Assembly (NCBI GenBank): GCA_018241725.1 | Contig: JAFEDI010000144.1 | Span: 113,908-177,907, forward strand | Reading direction: 5' to 3' | DNA: 64,000 bases | DNA from: Pseudomonadota bacterium | GTDB lineage: Bacteria; Pseudomonadota; Gammaproteobacteria; Burkholderiales; Rhodocyclaceae | Shown here: positions 15,033 to 49,095 of the stretch, piece after piece | Layout of the letters: each line of letters opens with the position of its first letter | Position numbering within the stretch: position 1 is the stretch's first letter | The notes under the pieces: model-generated | What the model saw: the letters and a program-made list of their open reading frames with translations, nothing else | Databases searched by the model: none | What the model was told of the DNA's origin: nothing | Position numbers and translations under genes: made by a program

Positions 15033-16442
15033 ATGTTCGCCCCCCGTCTGCTCGCGCTTCTCGTCCCGGCCCTCGTCGCCACCTCTGCCCATGCCGGCAT
15101 CGCCCTGATCGGCCAGGGCAGCCTGTCCGGCACCGACCTGTCCGGCCTCACCGGCACTCTCGAAAACGGCCAGGCCGCCAACCTCCTCGGCGGCCTCGGC
15201 TCAGCCATCGCCTGGGCCGGCGGCGACACCTTCCTGCTGGCGCCGGACCGCGGCCCCAACGCCGTCAACTGGAACGCCGCGGTGGACAACACCACCAGCT
15301 GGATTCCCCGCTTCCAGACCCTCAGCCTGGGCCTGTCCGGCACCAGTTTCAGCAGCAGCAGCGTGGCCACCCTCACGCCGACACTCAGCGCCACCACGCT
15401 GCTGTCCAGCACCACCGCCCTCAACTACGGCAGCGCCCCGGTGCTGAGCGGCAGCAACGGCCAGAACTACTTCACCGGCCGCTCCGACGCCTTCGATGCC
15501 GGCCTGTCCACCAACAGCGCCAATGCCCGCCTCGATCCGGAAGGCATCCGCGTCGCCGGCGACGGCAAGAGCGTCTACGTCTCAGACGAATACGGCCCCT
15601 ACATCTACCGCTTAGACCGCGCAACCGGCGAGCGCACCGGCGTGATCACGCTGCCCGACAAGTTCGCGGTGTCCAACCTGTCCGCCGTCGGCGACACCGA
15701 GATCGCCAACAACACCAGCGGCCGCGTCGCCAACAAGGGCATGGAAGGCCTCGCCATCACGCCGGACGGCAAGACCCTGGTCGGCATCATGCAGAGCCCG
15801 CTGATCCAGGACGGCGGCACCAATGCCGGCGTGGTGCGCATCGTCACCGTGGATCTCGCCACCGGCAAGGTCACCCACGAGTACGCCTACCAGCTCGAGA
15901 ACATCGGCACCGCCGCCAAGCCCAAGTACACCGGCATCAGCGAGATCGTAGCCATCAACGACCACGAGTTCCTCATCGACGAACGGGATGGCAAGGGCCT
16001 CGGCGATGACTCCAAGGCCGTATTCAAGAAGCTCTACCACGTGGACCTGAGCACCGCCCAGGACGTCAGCAACATCACCGGCGAGAGCGCACTGGCCGCC
16101 AAGGCTGTCGGCAAGAGCGTGTTCGCGGACCTGGCGGCCCTGTTGAAGGCCAACGGCTACACCGACCGTATGATCCCGGCCAAGATCGAAGGTCTCGCCT
16201 TCGGCCCCGACGTGCTGGTGGACGGCGTGCTGCAGCACACCCTGATCGTCACCAACGACAACGACTTCCTCGATACCGTCGGCGTGAACGGCGTGCCCAC
16301 CGCCAACCCGAACCAGTTCTTCGTGTTCGGCATCAGCGGCGACCTGCTCGCCGGCTACGAGGCCCAGCGCATTCCCGAGCCGGCCAGTCTCGCGCTGGCG
16401 GCCCTGGGTCTAGGCGGCCTGGTGCTGCGCCGCAAGAAGTAA
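15033..16442 (+). CDS. PEP-CTERM secreted esterase-like/phytase-like protein
   Basis: 469 residues. A signal peptide with the AxA site SAHA is followed at about residue 22 by an esterase-like beta-propeller domain (PF13449 type), with DPEGIRVAGDGKSVYVSDEY and GMEGLAITPDGKTLVGIMQS as characteristic strands. The C-terminus is a textbook PEP-CTERM sorting signal: PEPASLALAALGLGG, a hydrophobic helix, then RRKK. Such proteins are cut and anchored or released by an exosortase, which is not in this window, though an exosortase-associated acyltransferase lies at 44349. The substrate is unknown; phosphate esters are plausible. The first bases of its leader carry a TTGCAAAC direct repeat. Confidence 0.92.
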   Translation: MFAPRLLALLVPALVATSAHAGIALIGQGSLSGTDLSGLTGTLENGQAANLLGGLGSAIAWAGGDTFLLAPDRGPNAVNWNAAVDNTTSWIPRFQTLSLGLSGTSFSSSSVATLTPTLSATTLLSSTTALNYGSAPVLSGSNGQNYFTGRSDAFDAGLSTNSANARLDPEGIRVAGDGKSVYVSDEYGPYIYRLDRATGERTGVITLPDKFAVSNLSAVGDTEIANNTSGRVANKGMEGLAITPDGKTLVGIMQSPLIQDGGTNAGVVRIVTVDLATGKVTHEYAYQLENIGTAAKPKYTGISEIVAINDHEFLIDERDGKGLGDDSKAVFKKLYHVDLSTAQDVSNITGESALAAKAVGKSVFADLAALLKANGYTDRMIPAKIEGLAFGPDVLVDGVLQHTLIVTNDNDFLDTVGVNGVPTANPNQFFVFGISGDLLAGYEAQRIPEPASLALAALGLGGLVLRRKK

Positions 16443-41153: not shown

Positions 41154-42164
41154 TCAGCCCAGCTTCAGCGGCGCCGCGCAGCCATCGTCGATGCCTTCGA
41201 TCTCGATCTGGACGGTCGGGTGCTGGATGTGGAAACGCTCGTCCAGTTCGTGGGCAAGGTTCGTGAAGAACGCGTCGCCGGGGTGGCCGCCGGGCATCAC
41301 GAGATGGGCGGTCAGGGCGACATCGGAAGTGCCGAGGGCCCAGATGTGCAGGTCGTGGACACCGTTCACGCCGGGCAGGCTACGCAGCCAGGCATGCACC
41401 TCGAGCAGGTCGATACCGTCCGGCACGCCGTCGAAAACCAGGTGCAGGGACTGACGGAACAGGCCCCAGGTGCCCAGCACGATGACCACTGCGATGGCCA
41501 GGCTGACCAGCGGGTCGAGCCATTGCCAACCGAAGTGCAGGTACAGCGCGCCGGCGGCAACCACGCCCAGGGACACCAGCGCGTCGGCGGCCATGTGCAG
41601 GAAGGCGCCGCGGATGTTGAGGTCATCCTTGCTGCCTGACATGAACAGCGCCGCAGTGATGCCGTTGATCACCACGCCGATGGCGGCCACCACGATGATC
41701 GTCCACCCGCCCACGGCCTCCGGCGCCTGCAGACGCTGCACGGCCTCCAGGACCAGCGCGCCCATCGCGAACAGCAGCAGCATCGCATTGGCCAGCGCGG
41801 CGAGGATGGACGCGCGCTGCCAGCCGTAAGTGCGCTGATGGGTCGGACGCAGGCGGCCGGCCAGCGCGGCTCCCCACGCCAGGATCAGGCCGGCGACGTC
41901 GGACAGGTTGTGGCCGGCGTCGGCGAGCAACGCCAGGGAGTCCACGCGCCAGCCGTAGAAGGCCTCGATGAGGACGAAGCCGATGTTCAGGCAGATGCCG
42001 ATCGCGAAGGCCCGGTCATAGGACACCGGGCCGTGGTGATGATGGCCGTGTCCGTGGTGCCCATGAGCATGACTATGATCGTGATGATGGTGATCGTGGT
42101 CGCCGGCATGGTCACGGTGATCGTGATCGTGATCGTGATCGTGGGCAGGGTGGTCGTTGCTCAT
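41154..42164 (-). CDS. Cation diffusion facilitator (CzcD/ZitB/DmeF-like)
   Basis: 336 residues. A 45-residue N-terminal tail is almost all His, Asp and Gly (DHDHDHDHRDHAGDHDHHHH), a metal-binding extension. Six membrane helices follow at about 52-250, with ADAGHNLSDVAGL (helix II) and MAADALVSLGVVAAG (helix V) giving the HD/DD metal site, then a cytoplasmic domain ending with HIQHPTVQIEIE. It exports Zn2+, Co2+, Cd2+ or Ni2+ by proton exchange. Its ATG shares a base with the stop of the nitroreductase gene, so it is the last gene of the ThiF-nitroreductase operon, an unusual place. The DNA shows GATCGTGATCGTG tandem repeats from the His-Asp codons. Confidence 0.93.
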   Translation of the reverse strand: MSNDHPAHDHDHDHDHRDHAGDHDHHHHDHSHAHGHHGHGHHHHGPVSYDRAFAIGICLNIGFVLIEAFYGWRVDSLALLADAGHNLSDVAGLILAWGAALAGRLRPTHQRTYGWQRASILAALANAMLLLFAMGALVLEAVQRLQAPEAVGGWTIIVVAAIGVVINGITAALFMSGSKDDLNIRGAFLHMAADALVSLGVVAAGALYLHFGWQWLDPLVSLAIAVVIVLGTWGLFRQSLHLVFDGVPDGIDLLEVHAWLRSLPGVNGVHDLHIWALGTSDVALTAHLVMPGGHPGDAFFTNLAHELDERFHIQHPTVQIEIEGIDDGCAAPLKLG

Positions 42165-43240
42165 CAGGCTTGCAGCATCAGTTCATCCACGCTCTTGCGT
42201 ACCGAGCGGGACCAGGGGACGGGAGACACGCCGACCCGGCAGAAGAAGGTCAGCGCCTGCTCACGGCCGAAACCGCCGATGCGCTCGAACTCCTCCGCCA
42301 GCGCCGCAGCACCGCGGCCGATTTCAGGCAAGGCGGAAAAGCTGCGGCCGGCGCGGGCATACCAGCGGAAGATAAGCGGCGTCATCTCCGGTTGCAAGTG
42401 CAGACCGACTGATGTGGCGGTCAGCCACAGGCGCTGCATCGCGATGCCGCCGCTTACATAGTCCTCGACGCTCGTCGGCGGCTGCTCGGGGCGGATCAGC
42501 ACGTGGGACGCGCAGGCCAGCGCCGGAATGTAATCCAGCTGGACCCGCGGTGCGATGGTTCCACCCAGATATTTGTTGAAGAACTCGACCCGGCCCCAAT
42601 TGGCCATCACCCACTCCATCAGGCGCGCAGTGAGGCCGTCCACACCGACCGCCTGCTCCGGGATGCGATCCTTGCTGTAACGGCTGCGCCACTCGATGAT
42701 CTCCTTGTGCACCGGGAAAGCTTCCGGGCAGGTCAGGCGCAGGTAGGCATTACGCCACAGCAGGCCTGCCACCTGACGGCGCGCGGCGAACGACTCGAAG
42801 AACTGTACCGCGTAGCCGGCCCCCGGCGCTGCGGCCAGGGCCTGGCGCTGAGCCTCGGTCAGCGGCGTGGTGCGCATCGGGCGGCGCTGCACCACGCGCG
42901 TCTCGATGAAAGGCAGCAAGGCGTCCGCCGCCAGCCCGGGCTGCTCCGCCAGGCGAACGTCGAACACCGGCGCCACGTCACTGGACGCCAGCCGCCGGCT
43001 CCAGCTCGCCGCCAGCCCTTCGCCGCTGGCGGCGATGCGCAGGGTTTCCAGCAGTGCTCCATGGGCCATGTGGCTGGCATGGCCGTCGAAGTCGTAGAGG
43101 CACCAGTCGCGGGTGTCGTTGCCATGCACGGCAATGTGGTCGTCGCCGAGGATCTCGAAGCGCCACGGCTGGGTGTTGTCGCCGCTGGGCGCCCAGCGGG
43201 CCAGGTCAAGGATCTTCAGCAGGGTTTCGCGACGGGTCAT
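42164..43240 (-). CDS. Nitroreductase-fold protein paired with a ThiF-like enzyme
   Basis: 358 residues from the ATG at 43238-43240 (MTRRETLLKILDLARWAPSG). The flavin-binding start RWAPSGDNTQPWRFE and the later GGIAMQRLWLTATSVGLHLQ match the nitroreductase superfamily; it is longer than ordinary nitroreductases (about 200-220 residues) because of inserts at about 130-240. This size and its ThiF partner recall Rv1355c-type proteins, in which ThiF and nitroreductase domains are fused. It starts 11 bases after the ThiF-like stop and shares a base with the CDF start. The enzyme would reduce or oxidise a small molecule activated by the ThiF protein. Confidence 0.86.
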   Translation of the reverse strand: MTRRETLLKILDLARWAPSGDNTQPWRFEILGDDHIAVHGNDTRDWCLYDFDGHASHMAHGALLETLRIAASGEGLAASWSRRLASSDVAPVFDVRLAEQPGLAADALLPFIETRVVQRRPMRTTPLTEAQRQALAAAPGAGYAVQFFESFAARRQVAGLLWRNAYLRLTCPEAFPVHKEIIEWRSRYSKDRIPEQAVGVDGLTARLMEWVMANWGRVEFFNKYLGGTIAPRVQLDYIPALACASHVLIRPEQPPTSVEDYVSGGIAMQRLWLTATSVGLHLQPEMTPLIFRWYARAGRSFSALPEIGRGAAALAEEFERIGGFGREQALTFFCRVGVSPVPWSRSVRKSVDELMLQA

Positions 43241-43251
43241 GGCCGGTCTCC

Positions 43252-44136
43252 TCAGGCGCGCGCCGCCTCGCGCATGGCCCGTAGCTGACGCCGGGCAATG
43301 GCAAGGCCGATGCGCTGGATCGGGTTGTTGTTGCCGCCGGGCCGCCAGGTCTTCACATAGCGGTTGCGGTAGGCATCGAACTGGAAGCCCCACGGCGCGC
43401 ACAAGACCTCGCCGCGGCCGAGCAGGATCTTCAGGGATTCAGTAGCGGTCACGCCGGCACACAGCTGGCAGGCGGCAATGGTACTGGGGCCGCGGCGGGC
43501 AACGAAATCAACCCGCGACGGGTCCGCCAGGTAGGCCCTCTGCAGCATGGCCGGCGACAGGCCGAGCAGGAAGCGCACCGCCATCTCGTCGTCATCGCAG
43601 CCATCCAGGCGGAAATATTCCTCGAAGCTCATGCGTCCCGGCAGGAAGCTCAGCACTGCCGTCCCCATACCCAGCGGCGCCGCCGTCACAGCCGGGATGC
43701 CGTGCCGGTCGCAGGCATTGAAGGTGTCGCGCCGGGCACTGAAGGCAAAGAAGTCCAGACCATCCACATAGAGATCGACACCGGCCAGGAACTCGTCCAG
43801 ATTGCCTGCATTGACGCCGCCGCCGAACACGCGAATGTCCACGTCCGGGTTGATGTCACGGGCCATCTCGGCCATCACCTCGGCCTTCGGGCGGTCGAGC
43901 GTAGACATCATCGCACCGGCCTGGCGGTTGAAATTCACCAGGTCGAAAGTATCCAGGTCCGCCACGTGGAAGGCCCCCACGCCCAGGCGGGTCAGGGTCA
44001 GCAGATGCACGCCCCCAACCCCACCGACGCCTGCAATGGCGATCCGCTTGCCGCGCAACGCGGTCTGCTCTGCCTCAGTCACCCAGCCGATGTTGCGGGA
44101 GAAGGCTTCGTCGTAGTCAAAAATGCGGCGCGACAT
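43252..44136 (-). CDS. ThiF/MoeB/E1-like adenylyltransferase
   Basis: 294 residues from the ATG at 44134-44136 (MSRRIFDYDEAFSRNIGWVT). The nucleotide-binding IAIAGVGGVGGVHLLTLTR (residues about 33-51), DLDTFDLVNFNRQAGA and DRPKAEVMAE elements are standard for E1-like enzymes that adenylate a carboxylate. Only one CxxC (ACQLCAG) is present, so the usual four-Cys zinc site of MoeB/ThiF is missing. HesA-type nif proteins are relatives, yet the tight pairing with a long nitroreductase fits the Rv1355c group better. Its substrate may be a small acyl-amino acid rather than a ubiquitin-like protein; the divergent N-acyltransferase makes that attractive, but it is inferred. Confidence 0.87.
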   Translation of the reverse strand: MSRRIFDYDEAFSRNIGWVTEAEQTALRGKRIAIAGVGGVGGVHLLTLTRLGVGAFHVADLDTFDLVNFNRQAGAMMSTLDRPKAEVMAEMARDINPDVDIRVFGGGVNAGNLDEFLAGVDLYVDGLDFFAFSARRDTFNACDRHGIPAVTAAPLGMGTAVLSFLPGRMSFEEYFRLDGCDDDEMAVRFLLGLSPAMLQRAYLADPSRVDFVARRGPSTIAACQLCAGVTATESLKILLGRGEVLCAPWGFQFDAYRNRYVKTWRPGGNNNPIQRIGLAIARRQLRAMREAARA

Positions 44137-44266
44137 GCTGTCTGTATCCTTCGGGCAGTGGAATCTTATGATACGACACTTCCCGGCCGACCCATTCGGC
44201 ACATCCACGCCCCAAGCCGGGCGACAAAACACGCCATTGGCATAGACACGTACTACAATTGAAGCA

Positions 44267-44317
44267 GATACCCATTTCCCTTCAAGGAATCAGTATTACC
44301 AGCCGTAAATGGGTATC
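44267..44317. promoter_or_regulatory. Long inverted repeat between the ThiF-like operon and the acyltransferase
   Basis: GATACCCATTT at 44267-44277 and AAATGGGTATC at 44307-44317 are perfect 11-base inverted arms with a 29-base spacer, 40 bases centre to centre. TTCAAGG occurs beside both arms (44281 and 44333). The spacing suits a regulator binding both arms on one face of the DNA, but a hairpin in the acyltransferase leader is also possible. Confidence 0.5.
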
Positions 44318-44348
44318 GCCAGTAATTTAGACTTCAAGGGCTACCGCC

Positions 44349-45116
44349 ATGTCGCTACTCGATCGCTTCAGCCTCGGTGAAGGATTCAGGAAGTACTTCG
44401 AGATCGCCACCGCCTTCGACGACGCCGGCCGCAACGATGTGTTCGGCATTCGGCACGAGGTGTATTGCGAGGAACTCGGCTTCGAGCCGGTCCGCCCGGA
44501 CCGCCGCGAGACGGACGAATACGACCGTCACAGCCTGCACTGCCTGCTGCGCACCTCCACCGAGCCTCACGTATTAGTGGGCTGCAACCGCCTGGTGATG
44601 GCCCGTCCCGAAGAACCGGACTATCCACTGCCCTTCGAGCGCACCTGCGCTGCCACGCTGGACCGATCCATCATCGATCCCGCCAAGGAGCCCCGCGGCG
44701 CCATCGCCGAAGTCTCGCGCCTCGCCGTACGCGCCTACTACCGCCGACGCAAGGGCGAGACCAAGGCCGCCGTGGCGCTCAGCGACGACGATTTCGGTAC
44801 CAAGGAACAACCGCGCTTCCCCTACATTCCGATCGGTCTCTATCTGGGCGTAATCGCACTCGCCAAGCACGAGGGCATCGAGACCCTGTTCGTCCTTACC
44901 GAGCCCCGGCTGGCGGACCATTTCGCCAAGCTGGGCGTCAAGATCACCCAGATTGGCGGCCCGGTCGAACACCGGGGCATCCGCGTACCGTCGATGATGA
45001 ACGTGGACAGCATCATCAAGGGCCTGCGCTTCTTCGTGAAACCCATCTGGCGTGTCGTCGCCGAGGAAATCGAAGCCGGCTACAGCACCGGCCATCCGTC
45101 CTTCCGGCCGGTCTGA
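44349..45116 (+). CDS. PEP-CTERM/exosortase-associated acyltransferase (LuxI/FeeM-like)
   Basis: 255 residues. It belongs to the GNAT-like family TIGR03694, related to autoinducer synthases and N-acyl amino acid synthases. Signs are FGIRHEVYCEELGFEP (residues about 32-47), VGCNRLVMARP (about 77-87), EVSRLAVRAYYRRR (about 119-132) and the late PIGLYLGVIALAKHEGIET. It probably joins an acyl chain from acyl-ACP to an amino acid or amine. Genomes with this family also encode exosortase, consistent with the PEP-CTERM protein at 15033. It is divergent from a ThiF-nitroreductase pair, with a palindrome between, and followed by nifF 114 bases on. Confidence 0.87.
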   Translation: MSLLDRFSLGEGFRKYFEIATAFDDAGRNDVFGIRHEVYCEELGFEPVRPDRRETDEYDRHSLHCLLRTSTEPHVLVGCNRLVMARPEEPDYPLPFERTCAATLDRSIIDPAKEPRGAIAEVSRLAVRAYYRRRKGETKAAVALSDDDFGTKEQPRFPYIPIGLYLGVIALAKHEGIETLFVLTEPRLADHFAKLGVKITQIGGPVEHRGIRVPSMMNVDSIIKGLRFFVKPIWRVVAEEIEAGYSTGHPSFRPV

Positions 45117-45230: not shown

Positions 45231-45740
45231 ATGAGCAAGATCGGTCTTTTTTACGGTAGCGAGACGGGCAACACCCGCAAGGTGGCCAAGTCCATCGTGA
45301 AAAAGCTCGGCGAAGATGTGGTCGAGCTGTTCAACGTGTCCAAGGCCACGGCTGACGATGTTGCCAAGTTCAGCTCCCTCATCCTGGCGACCCCGACCCT
45401 CGGCGACGGCGAACTGGTGGACTCCTGGAAAGAGTTCTTCCCGACCTTCAAGGGCGTTGATCTGTCTGGGAAAACCGTGGCCATCTTCGGCTTCGGCGAC
45501 CAGGATGCCTATGGTCACGAGTTCTGTGATGCGATGGCCATCCTTTTCGATGCCGTCAAGGCCCAGGGCGCCACCGTCATTGGCGGCTGGCCCACCGACG
45601 ACTACGAGTTCTCCAAGTCCAAGGCGGTGGTGGACGGCGAATTCGTCGGGCTGGCCCTCGACAACGACAACCAGAAGGAACAGACCGAAGAGCGCGTCGA
45701 CACCTGGCTCGACCAGATCAAGTCAGAACTGCTCGGCTGA
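45231..45740 (+). CDS. nifF: Long-chain flavodoxin, NifF type
   Basis: 169 residues. It binds FMN non-covalently and donates low-potential electrons to the nitrogenase iron protein. The phosphate loop is YGSETGNTRKVAKS (residues 8-21); TPTLGDGELVDSW and FGFGDQDAYG line the flavin, and the C-terminal part, EFSKSKAVVDGEFVGLALDN, closely matches Azotobacter NifF rather than housekeeping FldA. Long-chain form (the 20-residue loop is present). A near-perfect sigma-54 promoter is directly upstream. The next gene, unknown, follows 76 bases downstream. Confidence 0.92.
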   Translation: MSKIGLFYGSETGNTRKVAKSIVKKLGEDVVELFNVSKATADDVAKFSSLILATPTLGDGELVDSWKEFFPTFKGVDLSGKTVAIFGFGDQDAYGHEFCDAMAILFDAVKAQGATVIGGWPTDDYEFSKSKAVVDGEFVGLALDNDNQKEQTEERVDTWLDQIKSELLG

Positions 45741-45756
45741 TGGCTGCGCCCGCGCC

Positions 45757-45772
45757 TGTCGTAAACACGACA
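45757..45772 (+). terminator. Hairpin after nifF
   Basis: TGTCGT (45757-45762) pairs with ACGACA (45767-45772) around AAAC; outside it CGCCCGCGCC and GGCGGGCG can extend the stem. No T tract, so partial termination or mRNA processing between nifF and the next gene is more likely than a full stop. Confidence 0.4.
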
Positions 45773-45816
45773 AACGGCGGGCGGGGTGTCAGGCATGCCA
45801 CAGGTCGGGGGCGTCC

Positions 45817-46260
45817 ATGAGTGACGCCCCCGATACCTTTGGCGGCGCCCGCCTGATCTTCGCCCACAAACATCCCACCAGTGCGCGCCTCCGCTTCGTC
45901 CGCTTCGAGCACGGCATGTGCGGCTTCACCCCCTTTCCAGCCGCAGCCAGCCTGTGCCCGGACGAGGAAGTCCCCGAATCCCCGGTCGTCACGCTGCCAT
46001 CGGTCCATCTGGCGGAAGCAGAGCGGCGCCTCGGCCTACCCTCCGGTGGTCTCAAGATCGAACCGGAATTCCGGCAATGCGTGGATGTCGGCGAAGCCTG
46101 CGTCGAGGTCCACCTGGCCATGTTCACCGCCATGGACCCGCCCTTCGAGGCGATTGCCGGTGCCGGCGGCCGCTTCGTGGCGATCACCGAAGCCCGTGGC
46201 TGCGCACAGATCGAACTGGAACTGCTGCGCAAAGCCTACGAGGCCGTCCTCGGCGGCTGA
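45817..46260 (+). CDS. Uncharacterised protein downstream of nifF
   Basis: 147 residues from the ATG at 45817. Soluble, no signal peptide, acidic. I do not recognise the family. It has five cysteines, including GMCGFTP, RQCVDVGEACVEVH and RGCAQIE, so metal or cluster binding is possible. The C-terminal part (FEAIAGAGGRFVAITEARGC) looks like an alpha/beta fold. Position after nifF, behind its sigma-54 promoter, and before bacteriohaemerythrin and nifZ suggests expression under nitrogen-fixing conditions. Convergent with the haemerythrin gene across a strong terminator. Confidence 0.75.
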   Translation: MSDAPDTFGGARLIFAHKHPTSARLRFVRFEHGMCGFTPFPAAASLCPDEEVPESPVVTLPSVHLAEAERRLGLPSGGLKIEPEFRQCVDVGEACVEVHLAMFTAMDPPFEAIAGAGGRFVAITEARGCAQIELELLRKAYEAVLGG

Positions 46261-46265
46261 GCCCT

Positions 46266-46290
46266 GCCGGCCCACGTGCGGTGGGCCGGC
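46266..46290. terminator. Bidirectional hairpin between the nifF-linked gene and haemerythrin
   Basis: GCCGGCCCAC at 46266-46275 and GTGGGCCGGC at 46281-46290 form a perfect 10-base stem with a 5-base loop, between convergent genes. No T tract. Confidence 0.65.
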
Positions 46291-46296
46291 GACCCA

Positions 46297-46683
46297 TCAC
46301 GTGGAGCGGGCCTTCAGGTGCGCCGCCAGCGCCGCATCCATCGTGGCCGCATGCAGGTCGAACCAGCCCGGCACCTGCTCGCGGATGTAGGCCTTGGCCA
46401 TCATCGTCGAGCCCTTCTCGACCCGCTCGCGGAAACGCCGCAGATCACCAAGCACCCGACGGTGCTCGCCGGCATGCTCGCCCTCCGCCGGAAAGGCGCT
46501 GTCGCGCATCCACGTCTCCTCGTTGGCGAAGTGCGTCTCGGTGTGCGCGCACAGGGCCGCAAAGGCCTCCACGAAGGCCGCGCCAGTGGCCGCCCCGGCC
46601 GCATTCACCAGAGCCACAAACTCCCGGTGGGTGTCATCCATTTCCGCCAGGCCAAGCAGGTGGCGCTCGTCGGACCATTCCAT
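46297..46683 (-). CDS. Bacteriohaemerythrin
   Basis: 128 residues from the ATG at 46681-46683, chosen over a GTG at 46695 because GGAGAG sits correctly before it. A di-iron four-helix bundle that binds O2; ligands are H19 (MDDTHREF), H51 and E55 (HTETHFANEE), H70 and H74 (GEHAGEHRRV), H111 and D116 (FDLHAATMD). All seven are present. Its place between nifF and nifZ and a sigma-54 promoter of its own point to scavenging or delivering oxygen while nitrogenase is being made; respiratory supply is an alternative. The C-terminal end is HLKARST. Confidence 0.93.
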   Translation of the reverse strand: MEWSDERHLLGLAEMDDTHREFVALVNAAGAATGAAFVEAFAALCAHTETHFANEETWMRDSAFPAEGEHAGEHRRVLGDLRRFRERVEKGSTMMAKAYIREQVPGWFDLHAATMDAALAAHLKARST

Positions 46684-46733
46684 CGCACTCTCCACATCAA
46701 GATACGCCGCCAGCCGGCGCTATCCAGTCGATC

Positions 46734-46749
46734 AGCGAAAAGCGTGCCG
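46734..46749 (-). promoter_or_regulatory. Sigma-54 promoter of bacteriohaemerythrin
   Basis: On the minus strand CGGCACGCTTTTCGCT; positions 1 and 13 differ from TGGCACGN4TTGCW. Predicted start near 46723. It is only four bases from the opposing nifZ promoter. TGT-N10-AGA at 46844-46859, inside nifZ, is a one-mismatch NifA-like site at a suitable distance. Confidence 0.65.
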
Positions 46750-46753
46750 GGCG

Positions 46754-46769
46754 TGGCACCGAACTTGCT
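46754..46769 (+). promoter_or_regulatory. Sigma-54 promoter of nifZ
   Basis: TGGCACCGAACTTGCT differs from the consensus only at position 7. Predicted start near 46780, with GGAG before the ATG at 46807. Confidence 0.82.
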
Positions 46770-46806
46770 GCACTGGCACATCACCACCTGAAACCGGAGA
46801 AGACTC

Positions 46807-47094
46807 ATGGAAGACATCGTCCAATACCAGCTCGGAGACGTGGTGTTCTGCCGCGAAGACCTGTTCAACGACGGCGGCCTGCCCGGCTATGAGGAAGGCG
46901 CGCTGATCGCCGCGGCCGGCACCCGCGGCGTGGTGGTCCAGTTCGGCCACGTGGAAGCCATGCCGAGCGAGGAGATCTACCTGGTGCGCTTCGAGGGCGA
47001 GGGCCAGGACCTCGGCCTGCCGATCGGTTGCCTGCCCGAGGAGCTGACCCAGGACGAGGCCGAGGCGGCCGAGTTGCGCGCCGCGGCCCACTGA
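46807..47094 (+). CDS. nifZ: NifZ-family nitrogen fixation protein
   Basis: 95 residues. NifZ helps form the P-cluster of the MoFe protein. The family pattern is clear: LFNDGGLPGYEEGALIA (residues about 18-34), GTRGVVVQFGHVE, then IYLVRFEGEGQDLGLPIGCL and a closing PEEL. The fold is a small SH3-like barrel. It has its own near-consensus sigma-54 promoter and is followed 12 bases later by a NifX/NafY protein. The structural genes nifHDK are not in the window, so these accessory genes lie at the edge of, or apart from, the main cluster. Confidence 0.9.
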   Translation: MEDIVQYQLGDVVFCREDLFNDGGLPGYEEGALIAAAGTRGVVVQFGHVEAMPSEEIYLVRFEGEGQDLGLPIGCLPEELTQDEAEAAELRAAAH

Positions 47095-47106
47095 GCGGAG
47101 CCACAG

Positions 47107-47490
47107 ATGAAGATCGCCATTCCCGTCACCGGTGAGCGCCACGTCGCCGGCCATGCCGGCCAGGCCCGCAACTGGCTGGTCTACGACTGCATCCCGGGCT
47201 CGCCGCTGCCCGCCCCGGACACCATCGTGCTGGCCCGCGAGCAGGTGCTGCACCACTTCGAGGACGACGGCCCGCATCCGCTCGACGGCGTCGAGGTGGT
47301 CATCGCCGCCAGTGCTGGCGACGGCTTCGTGCGCCACATGGCCAAGCGCGGCGCCGAAGTACTGCTGACAGGAGAACAACAACCCGACTCGGCCCTGGCC
47401 CGTATCCTGGCCGGCGAAGCGCTGCCCGACCCGCGTTTCGACATCACCACCACACTCTGCAAGATCCGCGACCTATTCTCCCGGCATTGA
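47107..47490 (+). CDS. NifX/NafY-family FeMo-cofactor-binding protein
   Basis: 127 residues. The N-terminal MKIAIPVTGERHVAGHAGQA and the later VEVVIAASAGDGFVRHMAKR and GAEVLLTGEQ segments match the dinitrogenase iron-molybdenum cofactor family (PF02579), whose members NifX, NafY and the NifB C-terminus carry FeMo-co or its precursors; the His in AGHAGQARNW is a likely cofactor contact. Within this family I cannot say which ortholog it is. It follows nifZ by 12 bases with its own GGAG site and shares the sigma-54 transcript. Confidence 0.88.
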   Translation: MKIAIPVTGERHVAGHAGQARNWLVYDCIPGSPLPAPDTIVLAREQVLHHFEDDGPHPLDGVEVVIAASAGDGFVRHMAKRGAEVLLTGEQQPDSALARILAGEALPDPRFDITTTLCKIRDLFSRH

Positions 47491-47574
47491 ACTCCCACGG
47501 CGACGGCGGGTCTGTCACGTGCCTGCAATTCCCGGGCCGTAGCCTGAGACGGCCCACCATCCCAGGAGAATGCC

Positions 47575-48168
47575 ATGTACCTGTCCCCGTCCGACATCCA
47601 GCAGACCCGTATCTCGACCCTCGACAACCTGCACGCGGCATCGCGTGCATGGGTCGAGGCCACCGAGAAGCTCGCCGATCTGGCCCTGCGCAACGGCCGC
47701 CAGCTCTTCGAGGAAGGCCGCGAGCATCTGGAGGAGCTGGCCTCCCGCAGCGAGATCAAGCTCGACGCGCTACCCGTCGAGCGCCTGTCCGACTGGCGCG
47801 CCGACTCCGCCAATCTGGTCCGTGAATACTTCGAGATCATCGGCGATGCGCATCAGTCCATCCTGAAGCTGGCCCGCGACCAGGTCGCCGTGTTCGACCA
47901 GGCCCTCAACCGCCAGCTCGAACATGCCGCTCGCAGTGCCGACGCCAACGGCGAAGCTGCCATCGGCCACGTGAAGAAGGCCCTGCGTCAGGCCGAAGCC
48001 GGCTTCAACGAGTTGGCCGATGCCGCGGCCCGCGGCGCCGACCTGGTGGAAGAACAGGTCCGCCAGGTGTCGGACGCCCTGAGCAGCGACGACACGGACA
48101 CCAATGAAGCCAGCGGCGAAACCGCCGTCGCGCCGCGCAGCCGTCGCCGCAGCAGCAGCGCGGAATAA
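47575..48168 (+). CDS. Phasin family protein
   Basis: 197 residues, almost entirely helical and acidic. Heptad-like patterns run through residues about 10-155 (LHAASRAWVEATEKLADLAL; FEIIGDAHQSILKLARDQVA), as in phasins that coat polyhydroxyalkanoate granules. The basic Ser-rich tail RSRRRSSSAE is typical of many proteobacterial phasins. It lies 84 bases after the NifX-like gene; PHA storage often accompanies nitrogen-limited growth. No PHA synthase gene is in the window, so granule binding is inferred from family only. Confidence 0.8.
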   Translation: MYLSPSDIQQTRISTLDNLHAASRAWVEATEKLADLALRNGRQLFEEGREHLEELASRSEIKLDALPVERLSDWRADSANLVREYFEIIGDAHQSILKLARDQVAVFDQALNRQLEHAARSADANGEAAIGHVKKALRQAEAGFNELADAAARGADLVEEQVRQVSDALSSDDTDTNEASGETAVAPRSRRRSSSAE

Positions 48169-48276
48169 GCCCGCCACCGCCGGCGGACCGGGCAGGCCCG
48201 TTGGCGGTAAAATCGGGATTCCCGGCGACGGGGCCAGGCGCCCCTGCCGCCCGCCTTCACCACAGCCAGGAATCCC

Positions 48277-49095
48277 ATGAGCACCGCATCCCTCTACCAG
48301 GCCCGTTACGGCAGCGCCGACGTCGCCGTACCGTCCGCCGGTTCCCCCATCATCGATCACCTGCTGGCCCACCGCTCGGTGCGCGCCTACCTGCCCGACC
48401 CGGTCAGCGACGACACCCTCGCCGCGATCATCGCCGCCGCCCAGTCCGCCGCCAGCTCCTCCAACCTGCATGCATGGAGCGTCGTGGCCGTCCGCGATCC
48501 GGCCCGCAAGGCCCGTCTGGCCGAGCTGGCCGGCGATCAGGATCACATCCGCCAGGCCCCGCTGCTGCTGGTGTGGCTGGCCGACCTGGCCCGCCTGGAG
48601 GCGGTCGCGCAGAAGCTCGGCGAAACCCCGGCCGCACTGGACTACCTGGAAATGTTCGAAGTAGGCGTCATCGACGCCGCGCTGGCGGCGCAGAACGCGG
48701 TCACCGCCGCCGAATCCCTCGGCCTCGGCACCGTGTATATCGGTGCAATGCGCAACCGGCCGGAAGACGTGGCAGCCGAACTCCAGCTACCGTCGAAGGT
48801 CGTCGCGATGTTCGGCCTGTGCGTCGGCACCCCCGACCCGCTGCAGCCCGCGTCGGTCAAGCCGCGCCCGCTGCAGTCCGTGGTGTTGCATCAGGAAACC
48901 TATTCCCTGCCCGCCCAGCAGGCCGGCCTGGAGTACTACGACAGCGCGATGAGCGCCTTCTACACCAGCCAGGGCATGAAGGTACGCGGCACCTGGTCCA
49001 ACCATTCGACCAAGCGCGTCCGCGACGCCGGCTCCCTGTCCGGCCGCGACCGCCTGGTGGAAGCCCTCAACACGCTGGGCTTCGCACTGAAGTAA
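48277..49095 (+). CDS. NfsA-like NADPH-dependent nitroreductase
   Basis: 272 residues, with HRSVRAYLPDPVSDDTLAAI (residues about 32-51), QSAASSSNLHAWSVVAV for FMN binding, and GLGTVYIGAMRN as the nitroreductase core; the C-terminal extension with GTWSNHSTKRVRDAG is the NfsA/FRP signature that contacts NADPH. It reduces nitroaromatics, quinones or flavins. The name of the true substrate is not known. It stands between the phasin and the convergent nitrate transporter operon. Confidence 0.92.
   Translation: MSTASLYQARYGSADVAVPSAGSPIIDHLLAHRSVRAYLPDPVSDDTLAAIIAAAQSAASSSNLHAWSVVAVRDPARKARLAELAGDQDHIRQAPLLLVWLADLARLEAVAQKLGETPAALDYLEMFEVGVIDAALAAQNAVTAAESLGLGTVYIGAMRNRPEDVAAELQLPSKVVAMFGLCVGTPDPLQPASVKPRPLQSVVLHQETYSLPAQQAGLEYYDSAMSAFYTSQGMKVRGTWSNHSTKRVRDAGSLSGRDRLVEALNTLGFALK

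Follow-up and report, generated by a model that had tools for sequence, protein, structure and literature searches.

Several bacteria are known to combine an acyltransferase with a ThiF-like enzyme and a flavin oxidase for the synthesis of acyl-oxazolones or N-acyl dehydroamino acids. In the TyzABC and TrzAS systems, an N-acyl amino acid is converted into an oxazolone by an ATP-driven ThiF cyclase, and a flavin oxidase desaturates it with O2 (PMC10404671, PMC12856293). Cyclisation comes first in TrzS, and the order is not obligate in TyzABC; acid hydrolyses the oxazolone ring to an open, oxidised compound, and the purpose of acyl-oxazolones is described as a major unresolved question (PMC12856293). 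The producers of kyonggic acid, thalassotalic acid and stieleriacine likewise carry clusters of an acyltransferase, a ThiF protein and a nitroreductase (PMC12479983). The locus studied here lies at positions 42164-45116 of a 64,000-nucleotide stretch of DNA (the window) from a Pseudomonadota bacterium of the Rhodocyclaceae (assembly GCA_018241725.1, contig JAFEDI010000144.1), and consists of a ThiF/E1-like gene, a gene for a nitroreductase-superfamily flavin oxidase and a divergent gene for a TIGR03694 acyltransferase.

The locus is best read, with a probability of roughly 65%, as a three-enzyme acyl-oxazolone route that has joined the exosortase A (XrtA)/PEP-CTERM matrix system as an accessory. 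This reading is built on genes, families, folds, clustering and the co-variation of ThiF with exosortase A, and the product itself is predicted. Given that the set is known from TyzABC, TrzAS and related clusters, the pathway is not new as a pathway: it was described from 2021 to 2025 in other bacteria, including the Massilia cluster (PMC12479983). Hence, the sequence-only reading of this DNA had guessed the chemistry in agreement with TyzABC and TrzAS (N-acyl amino acid formation, activation of the carboxylate by the E1-like protein, flavin-dependent oxidation), and its statement that it knew of no account of such a pathway is not supported. What looks new is that the ThiF/oxidase part is linked to exosortase A. 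No published tie of this kind was found in the open-licence papers covered, a scope that does not amount to proof that none has been published; oxazolones appear there together with PEP-CTERM or exosortase in unrelated mentions only, and the main texts of PMC10404671, PMC12856293 and PMC12479983 name neither exosortase nor PEP-CTERM.

The open reading frames and families claimed from the sequence were confirmed for all three genes. The ThiF/E1-like protein, a predicted ATP-dependent N-acyl amino acid cyclase, is encoded at 43252-44136 on the minus strand (294 amino acids from its likely start). It scores 475.7 bits with NF006077 (PRK08223), above the cut-off of 266, and is therefore a member of that family; the Pfam ThiF score is 135.8 bits. 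The MoeB models stay well under their cut-offs (TIGR02355, 50.8 against 376.55 bits; PRK05690, 67.1 against 266 bits), as does the ThiF model TIGR02356 (83.2 against 275.25 bits), and the TcdA cut-off is likewise far off. The closest solved sequences are TcdA, ThiF and MoeB, and the Asp pair of the window protein aligns with the Asp pair of TcdA. Arg71, Lys84, Asp125 and Asp128, which we take to correspond to the catalytic residues of MoeB, are invariant in 107 of 107 aligned ThiF sequences, and the ATP-site residues are thus intact. Among the matches listed, the protein is 97% identical to one from the metagenome-assembled genome (MAG) Proteobacteria SZAS-77, 88% to one from a Zoogloeaceae MAG, and 82-87% to those of Zoogloea genomes, which are the nearest named ones.

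The ThiF stop codon lies 11 bases upstream of the start of the oxidase gene on the same strand (42164-43240, minus strand, 358 amino acids from the likely start). The oxidase, a predicted alpha,beta-desaturase, matches Pfam PF00881 with 49.6 bits (cut-off 23.5). Its AlphaFold model (pLDDT 94.3) has as first structural match the Acg homologue 2ymv, with an E-value of 1.5e-13 and TM-scores of 0.69/0.75, the next best match being at 1e-5, and a profile match to the same structure has an E-value of 2.1e-9. The window has an Acg-like flavin oxidase encoded beside ThiF, and in the known acyl-oxazolone pathways such an oxidase is encoded beside ThiF or fused to it. The resemblance of the pair to the fused Rv1355c-type proteins, put forward from the sequence, is fair as homology and does not extend to family membership: the Rv1355c-family model NF005901 (TrzS), with a cut-off of 476 bits, is reached neither by the oxidase (116.2 bits) nor by ThiF (59.9 bits), and the two are separate genes.

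The third gene, at 44349-45116 on the plus strand (255 amino acids from the likely start), is divergent from ThiF across a 212-base intergenic region. Its product belongs to the PEP-CTERM/exosortase-associated acyltransferase family TIGR03694, scoring 249.9 bits against a cut-off of 111.95. Glu121 is invariant in 50 sequences and aligns with a Glu of the FeeM-type synthases at an hhalign E-value of 0.00024 and a probability of 43% only. It is presumably the equivalent of the conserved Glu that was found by mutation to be required in such an N-acyl amino acid synthase (PMC4897644). From family, fold and this residue together, we infer that the acyltransferase is an N-acyl amino acid synthase.

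The company kept by ThiF was surveyed in two sets of relatives. The named set comprised the best 80 of at least 568 ThiF relatives from named genomes, and the order set comprised 28 loci from a sample of 150 genomes of the order, with the window's own genome excluded. Profiles of the neighbours were built from the 28 order loci, a locus on contig C15 of the own genome and the window; a threshold of 60 bits was used for acyltransferase and oxidase, so that weaker oxidase relatives are counted. PEP-CTERM genes were called by a regular expression of our own. As controls, below-cut-off ThiF-superfamily genes of the same genomes were taken, which are presumably of MoeB/TcdA type. The 5-kb neighbourhood could not be evaluated for 30 of the 80 named loci, 7 of the 29 order-set loci (including one below-cut-off case) and 2 of the 20 control loci.

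Within 5 kb of ThiF, 41 of the 50 evaluable named loci have an acyltransferase and 42 an oxidase; 33 have both, and all 50 have at least one. The acyltransferase is of TIGR03694 type in 34 of these loci and of FeeM type in nine. A PEP-CTERM gene is present in 37, an FtsX, LolA-like or MMPL gene in 30, and a gene of the XrtA locus in 15. The 22 evaluable order loci give the corresponding values of 16 (acyltransferase), 18 (oxidase), 13 (both) and 21 (at least one), with a PEP-CTERM gene in 18, an FtsX/LolA-like/MMPL gene in 10 and an XrtA-locus gene in 11. In the 18 evaluable control loci, every one of these counts is zero, save for a single PEP-CTERM call. When the named loci are collapsed into 37 genus-like groups (our own labels, taken from record titles), an acyltransferase is found in 30, an oxidase in 33, both in 26 and a PEP-CTERM gene in 30. 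The grouping of the genes, for which a neighbourhood survey of TIGR03694 had been proposed as a check, is borne out here from the side of ThiF: acyltransferase and E1-like gene, and within the order usually the flavoenzyme, do cluster. In 75 of the 108 loci the oxidase gene immediately follows ThiF in the same orientation, an arrangement that is not universal.

Where a TIGR03694-type gene is absent within 5 kb, a FeeM-type synthase is present in 7 of 16 named loci and 13 of 19 order loci; its identity is given by PF21926 (182.9 bits) and by the structure 2g0b (E-value 4.6e-21). The model PRK14852, of 989 positions, covers all three functions: FeeM-type proteins match within positions 72-224, the window ThiF matches positions 311-588, and the window oxidase matches weakly (22.3 bits) at 614-689. 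No triple-fusion protein above the cut-off of this model was found in 200 genomes of the phylum, and the fusion rests on the model. Gene order in relatives repeats the association with the PEP-CTERM system. In four loci of Thauera, Denitromonas and Pseudothauera, an acyltransferase-FtsX-FtsX row is divergent from a ThiF-oxidase-PepA-like row, and four others have the genes for a FeeM-type synthase, ThiF and the oxidase lined up with prsT and a PEP-CTERM gene.

How closely ThiF follows exosortase A was quantified in the order sample, whose 150 genomes represent 51 families. PRK08223 ThiF occurs in 29 of them, TIGR03694 in 22, an exosortase (TIGR02602) in 54 and exosortase A (TIGR03109) in 40. 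Exosortase A is present in 27 of the 29 ThiF genomes and in 13 of the 121 others. Seen from the other side, ThiF occurs in 27 of 40 genomes with exosortase A, in none of the 14 that have other exosortases alone (p = 6e-6, without correction for kinship), and in 2 of 96 without exosortase. An exosortase of any kind is present in 27 of the 29 ThiF genomes and in 27 of the 121 others (Fisher test, 1e-12, likewise uncorrected for kinship); when ThiF is shuffled within families, the mean is 21.1, and the observed 27 is reached in 13 of 200000 shuffles. All nine informative families have an exosortase in every ThiF genome. ThiF comes and goes with exosortase A, and not with other exosortases.

The acyltransferase follows the same system. 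An exosortase is found in 22 of 22 TIGR03694 genomes and exosortase A in 20 of them, which agrees with the name of the family, and acyl amino acid synthases in connection with PEP-CTERM are said to have been the subject of a study by Craig et al. in 2011. In Methylomonas LW13, the distinct polysaccharide band was lost when an N-acyl amino acid synthase of PEP-CTERM type was disrupted (PMC11072679). As for distances, ThiF lies within about 25 kb of an exosortase on the same contig in eight genomes of the order sample, and in the other ThiF genomes the exosortase is farther off or on a different contig. Across a phylum sample of 299 genomes, ThiF occurs in eight, of which seven have an exosortase, compared with 39 of the 291 others at an E-value of 1e-20. 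The five of these ThiF genomes that fall outside the order all have a TIGR03694-type profile match within 5 kb, which is weak (63 bits) in the one lacking an exosortase, and three have PEP-CTERM genes nearby. The link to the PEP-CTERM system that had been suggested from the sequence is therefore stronger than claimed, given both the co-occurrence with exosortase A and the PEP-CTERM genes near ThiF.

Four steps are proposed for the route. As family, fold and conserved Glu suggest, the TIGR03694 enzyme would first N-acylate an amino acid, probably an aromatic one, with a fatty acyl group taken from acyl carrier protein or coenzyme A. By homology to demonstrated reactions, ThiF would then use ATP to adenylate the carboxylate, after which ring closure by the amide oxygen would give an oxazol-5(4H)-one. 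On the same grounds, the flavin oxidase would use O2 to introduce a double bond next to the ring, a step that is not expected in every relative; its product, once hydrolysed, would yield the N-acyl dehydroamino acids that have been obtained from other bacteria. Finally, judging from gene content, the lipid may be used at the site of exosortase A, in the envelope or in the extracellular matrix, and an ABC/FtsX/LolA-like transport set stands beside the locus in many relatives.

A more specific view of the last step, which we consider rather unlikely, is that the oxazolone (an azlactone) serves as an activated acylating lipid that tethers PEP-CTERM proteins, or amino groups of the exopolysaccharide, to the envelope. 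The ABC/FtsX transporter and the LolA-like carrier would then carry this lipid, free or with protein bound to it, in the direction of the outer membrane. Two observations fit this view: acyltransferase and ThiF persist without the oxidase in some Zoogloea and in four of the five loci beyond the order, and the exosortase with which ThiF co-varies is exosortase A, not the others. If tethering were true, the chemical partner of the exosortase products would be named.

Several observations weigh against an acyl-oxazolone route in the service of exosortase A. No oxazolone was found for the Massilia, Thalassotalea and Stieleria compounds in PMC12479983, where the role of ThiF is called enigmatic; the acid lability of the ring could account for this. 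Nor is a product described for any pair of TIGR03694 and PRK08223 proteins in the literature covered, as far as the available parts of the papers go. The window acyltransferase misses the FeeM threshold of PF21926 (22 against 27 bits), its model (pLDDT 84.8) is matched first by the acyl-homoserine lactone synthases TofI, BjaI and LasI, with the FeeM structure 2g0b at rank 13, and it is nearer to these synthases than to FeeM by sequence too.

The survey also has its exceptions. An acyltransferase is absent within 5 kb in 9 of the 50 named loci and an oxidase in eight. In the eight genomes with oxidase-less loci, of which five are MAGs by title, the window oxidase has no match in five, a weak match in one and a good match elsewhere in two. 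Of the five ThiF genomes outside the order, one has an oxidase match near ThiF. Given this scarcity of the oxidase outside the order, the constant core is acyltransferase plus ThiF. Within exosortase-positive genomes, ThiF and TIGR03694 are not associated (12 of 27 against 10 of 27, p = 0.39). TIGR03694 was accordingly rejected as an obligate partner of ThiF, a FeeM-type synthase substituting for it in some loci. Two ThiF genomes of the order sample have no exosortase. Moreover, a few of the contigs from which the profiles were built recur among the named loci, so that the two sets are not fully independent.

The window itself departs from the pattern seen in its relatives. No PEP-CTERM or XrtA gene was found within 5 kb of the locus; the only PEP-CTERM reading frame found in the window, a candidate exosortase A substrate outside the operon, lies about 26 kb away at 15033-16442 on the plus strand (TIGR02595, 19.9 bits, cut-off 16) and ends in the C-terminal tail PEPASLALAALGLGGLVLRRKK. 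The source genome is a draft of 5.93 Mb in 151 contigs, and its exosortase A is on another contig (C126), together with XrtA genes, an ABC ATPase, a LolA-like gene and a DUF1302 gene; an FtsX pair is on contig C144. The 5.9-kb contig C15 carries a second TIGR03694-type acyltransferase, a FeeM-type synthase and a PepA-like PEP-CTERM gene, and is without ThiF. Since the parts are dispersed in this genome, the link there rests on co-occurrence and on the relatives, not on adjacency.

The alternative that survives best, which is possible and clearly less probable than the route proposed, is that the route ends in an N-acyl (dehydro)amino acid of the kyonggic or thalassotalic acid type that is secreted in free form and acts as a surfactant, antibiotic or community signal. 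The ring made by ThiF would then be a passing intermediate, and the exosortase tie would reflect a shared biofilm way of life. Both Massilia kyonggiensis and the Thalassotalea producers have clusters of this composition, a Massilia without ThiF and nitroreductase makes saturated compounds only (PMC12479983), and the oxazolone ring hydrolyses easily (PMC12856293). A shared way of life, however, would lead one to expect neither the link of ThiF to exosortase A (27 of 40 genomes) as opposed to the other exosortases (0 of 14), nor a PEP-CTERM gene less than 5 kb away at 37 of the 50 loci.

It is quite improbable that the acyltransferase is a lone signal synthase of the LuxI type, with ThiF and oxidase as unrelated neighbours. 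Its best matches in sequence and fold, the acyl-homoserine lactone synthases named above, speak for this, as does the position of its gene on the opposite strand; yet an acyltransferase lies within 5 kb of ThiF in 41 of 50 named loci and 0 of 18 control loci, and the PRK14852 model joins the three domains, although none of that kind was found in the 200 genomes. Pairs of E1-like and nitroreductase-fold proteins act in the synthesis of thiazole/oxazole-modified peptides, and several relatives have a PepA-like gene immediately after the oxidase, so that ThiF and oxidase might modify a peptide as in azol(in)e peptide clusters, perhaps PepA itself; given that the oxidase is Acg-like, this is more doubtful still. 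Annotation at the Pfam level alone would even allow an ordinary MoeB/ThiF-type adenylyltransferase adjacent by chance to a detoxifying nitroreductase, an explanation that is hardly credible in view of the MoeB and ThiF models being far under their cut-offs and of the absence of acyltransferase and oxidase from all 18 control loci.

If the link to exosortase A is functional, acyl-oxazolones would be lipids of the matrix or of sorting across a broad range of Proteobacteria, and would offer a chemical handle on the flocculation of wastewater. Two questions meet here, namely what acyl-oxazolones are for and why PEP-CTERM sorting is accompanied by N-acyl amino acid synthases; with a ThiF cyclase that follows exosortase A, both become testable in harmless, flocculating water bacteria.

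Downstream of the oxidase, a gene for a CDF-family metal exporter (41154-42164, minus strand; TIGR01297, 245.3 bits) shares one base of its start codon with the oxidase stop codon, at window position 42164. Given this overlap, the operon is probably ThiF-oxidase-CDF, and the overlap suggests that translation of the exporter is coupled to that of the pathway. The exporter, a probable operon partner in Zoogloea-type genomes, adjoins ThiF or oxidase in Zoogloea-type loci and is rare elsewhere (8 of the 50 evaluable named loci in all). Four loci of Zoogloea MAGs have it directly after ThiF with no oxidase between, and in three of these four genomes the window oxidase has no match at all. On the other side of the locus, after the acyltransferase, positions 45231-49095 hold genes for a flavodoxin, small NifZ-like and NifX-like proteins, a phasin-like protein and an NfsA-like nitroreductase (the nif and phasin labels are our own). 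Among the loci L068 to L097, the flavodoxin and NifX part is found in L068 alone, and the NfsA-like and phasin-like genes recur in other Zoogloea-type loci. The flavodoxin/nif-like genes were considered as part of the unit and rejected, being present in L068 and absent from the other Zoogloea-type loci.

The intergenic region between the divergent genes holds the palindrome pointed out in the sequence-only reading, a perfect inverted repeat of 11 bases with arms GATACCCATTT (44267-44277) and AAATGGGTATC (44307-44317), whose starts are 40 bases apart with 29 bases between the arms. A repeat of this kind (at least 11 bases, loop of 3-40) arose in 5 of 5000 dinucleotide shuffles of the 212-base region, which marks it as unusual there, and the whole window has 13 such hits, some of them overlapping. 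This repeat occurs once in the source genome. Among the scannable upstream regions of named loci, it is shared only with L068, whose ThiF is the one 97% identical, and it is absent from the other Zoogloea-type upstream regions scanned. Hence, since it is not conserved beyond one very close relative, the repeat gives no evidence for a shared regulator, and its use as a sign of one was abandoned.

Other neighbours recur in parts of the survey. An ABC ATPase of LolD/DevA-like type, a LolA-like protein (PF17131) and a DUF1302 protein form a recurring set near XrtA genes in loci L123, L121, L145 and L191, joined by two FtsX permeases in the first three; perhaps this set provides the exosortase A system with a transport route of its own in the envelope. 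The label Lol-like is loose, as the ABC ATPase scores 214.7 against a LolD cut-off of 307.75 bits and the FtsX permease 91.7 against a LolC/E cut-off of 362.45 bits; the LolA-like protein does exceed its Pfam cut-off. A glycosyltransferase, of macrolide/UDP type in the only annotated member, adjoins the ThiF-oxidase genes in six loci (L138 among them) and lies within about 3 kb of them in L125 and L129, and two further loci have an O-methyltransferase beside these genes. These neighbours might tailor the product.

In comparison with the known systems, as described in the available parts of the respective papers, TyzABC agrees with the window set in having separate genes for ThiF and a single-domain flavin oxidase in one predicted operon, with an adjoining acyltransferase on the opposite strand (PMC10404671). 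It differs in that its acyltransferase is, by gene numbers (Rv2336, Rv2337c, Rv2338c), convergent with the operon, whereas that of the window is divergent; it is also actinobacterial and lies beside mmpL9 and cys genes, and its likeness to the window set is one of description only. OxzAB of Pseudoalteromonas rubra (de Rond et al. 2021) likewise combines acyltransferase, ThiF and flavin oxidase, producing acyl-tyrazolones and acyl-phenazolones; its ThiF and oxidase are fused in OxzB, and here too the comparison is by description only. TrzAS, of the Rv1356c-Rv1355c type, has a ThiF cyclase and a flavin oxidase that convert an N-acyl amino acid, as is predicted for the window set, and 2ymv is the closest solved structure for both TrzS and the window oxidase (PMC12856293); unlike the window proteins, which are far under the Rv1355c-family cut-off, TrzS is a fusion.

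The clusters for kyonggic acid, thalassotalic acid and stieleriacine bring acyltransferase, ThiF and nitroreductase together as the window does, also in a beta-proteobacterium, Massilia (PMC12479983), and differ in that only N-acyl (dehydro)tyrosine and N-acyl (dehydro)phenylalanine compounds have been seen in the text available, the ThiF proteins being compared by description only. Three related Oxalobacteraceae loci of the survey (L125, L129 and L138) have a PRK08223 ThiF and no acyltransferase within the stretch examined. As regards the XrtA/PEP-CTERM/exopolysaccharide system (Haft et al. 2006, PMC1569441), including the PrsT-PepA floc system (PMC9850573), the main texts of both papers name neither ThiF nor nitroreductase, and 13 of the 40 genomes with exosortase A have no ThiF. 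The agreement with this system is that ThiF tracks exosortase A, and that in several relatives it stands in a row with pepA-like and prsT genes.

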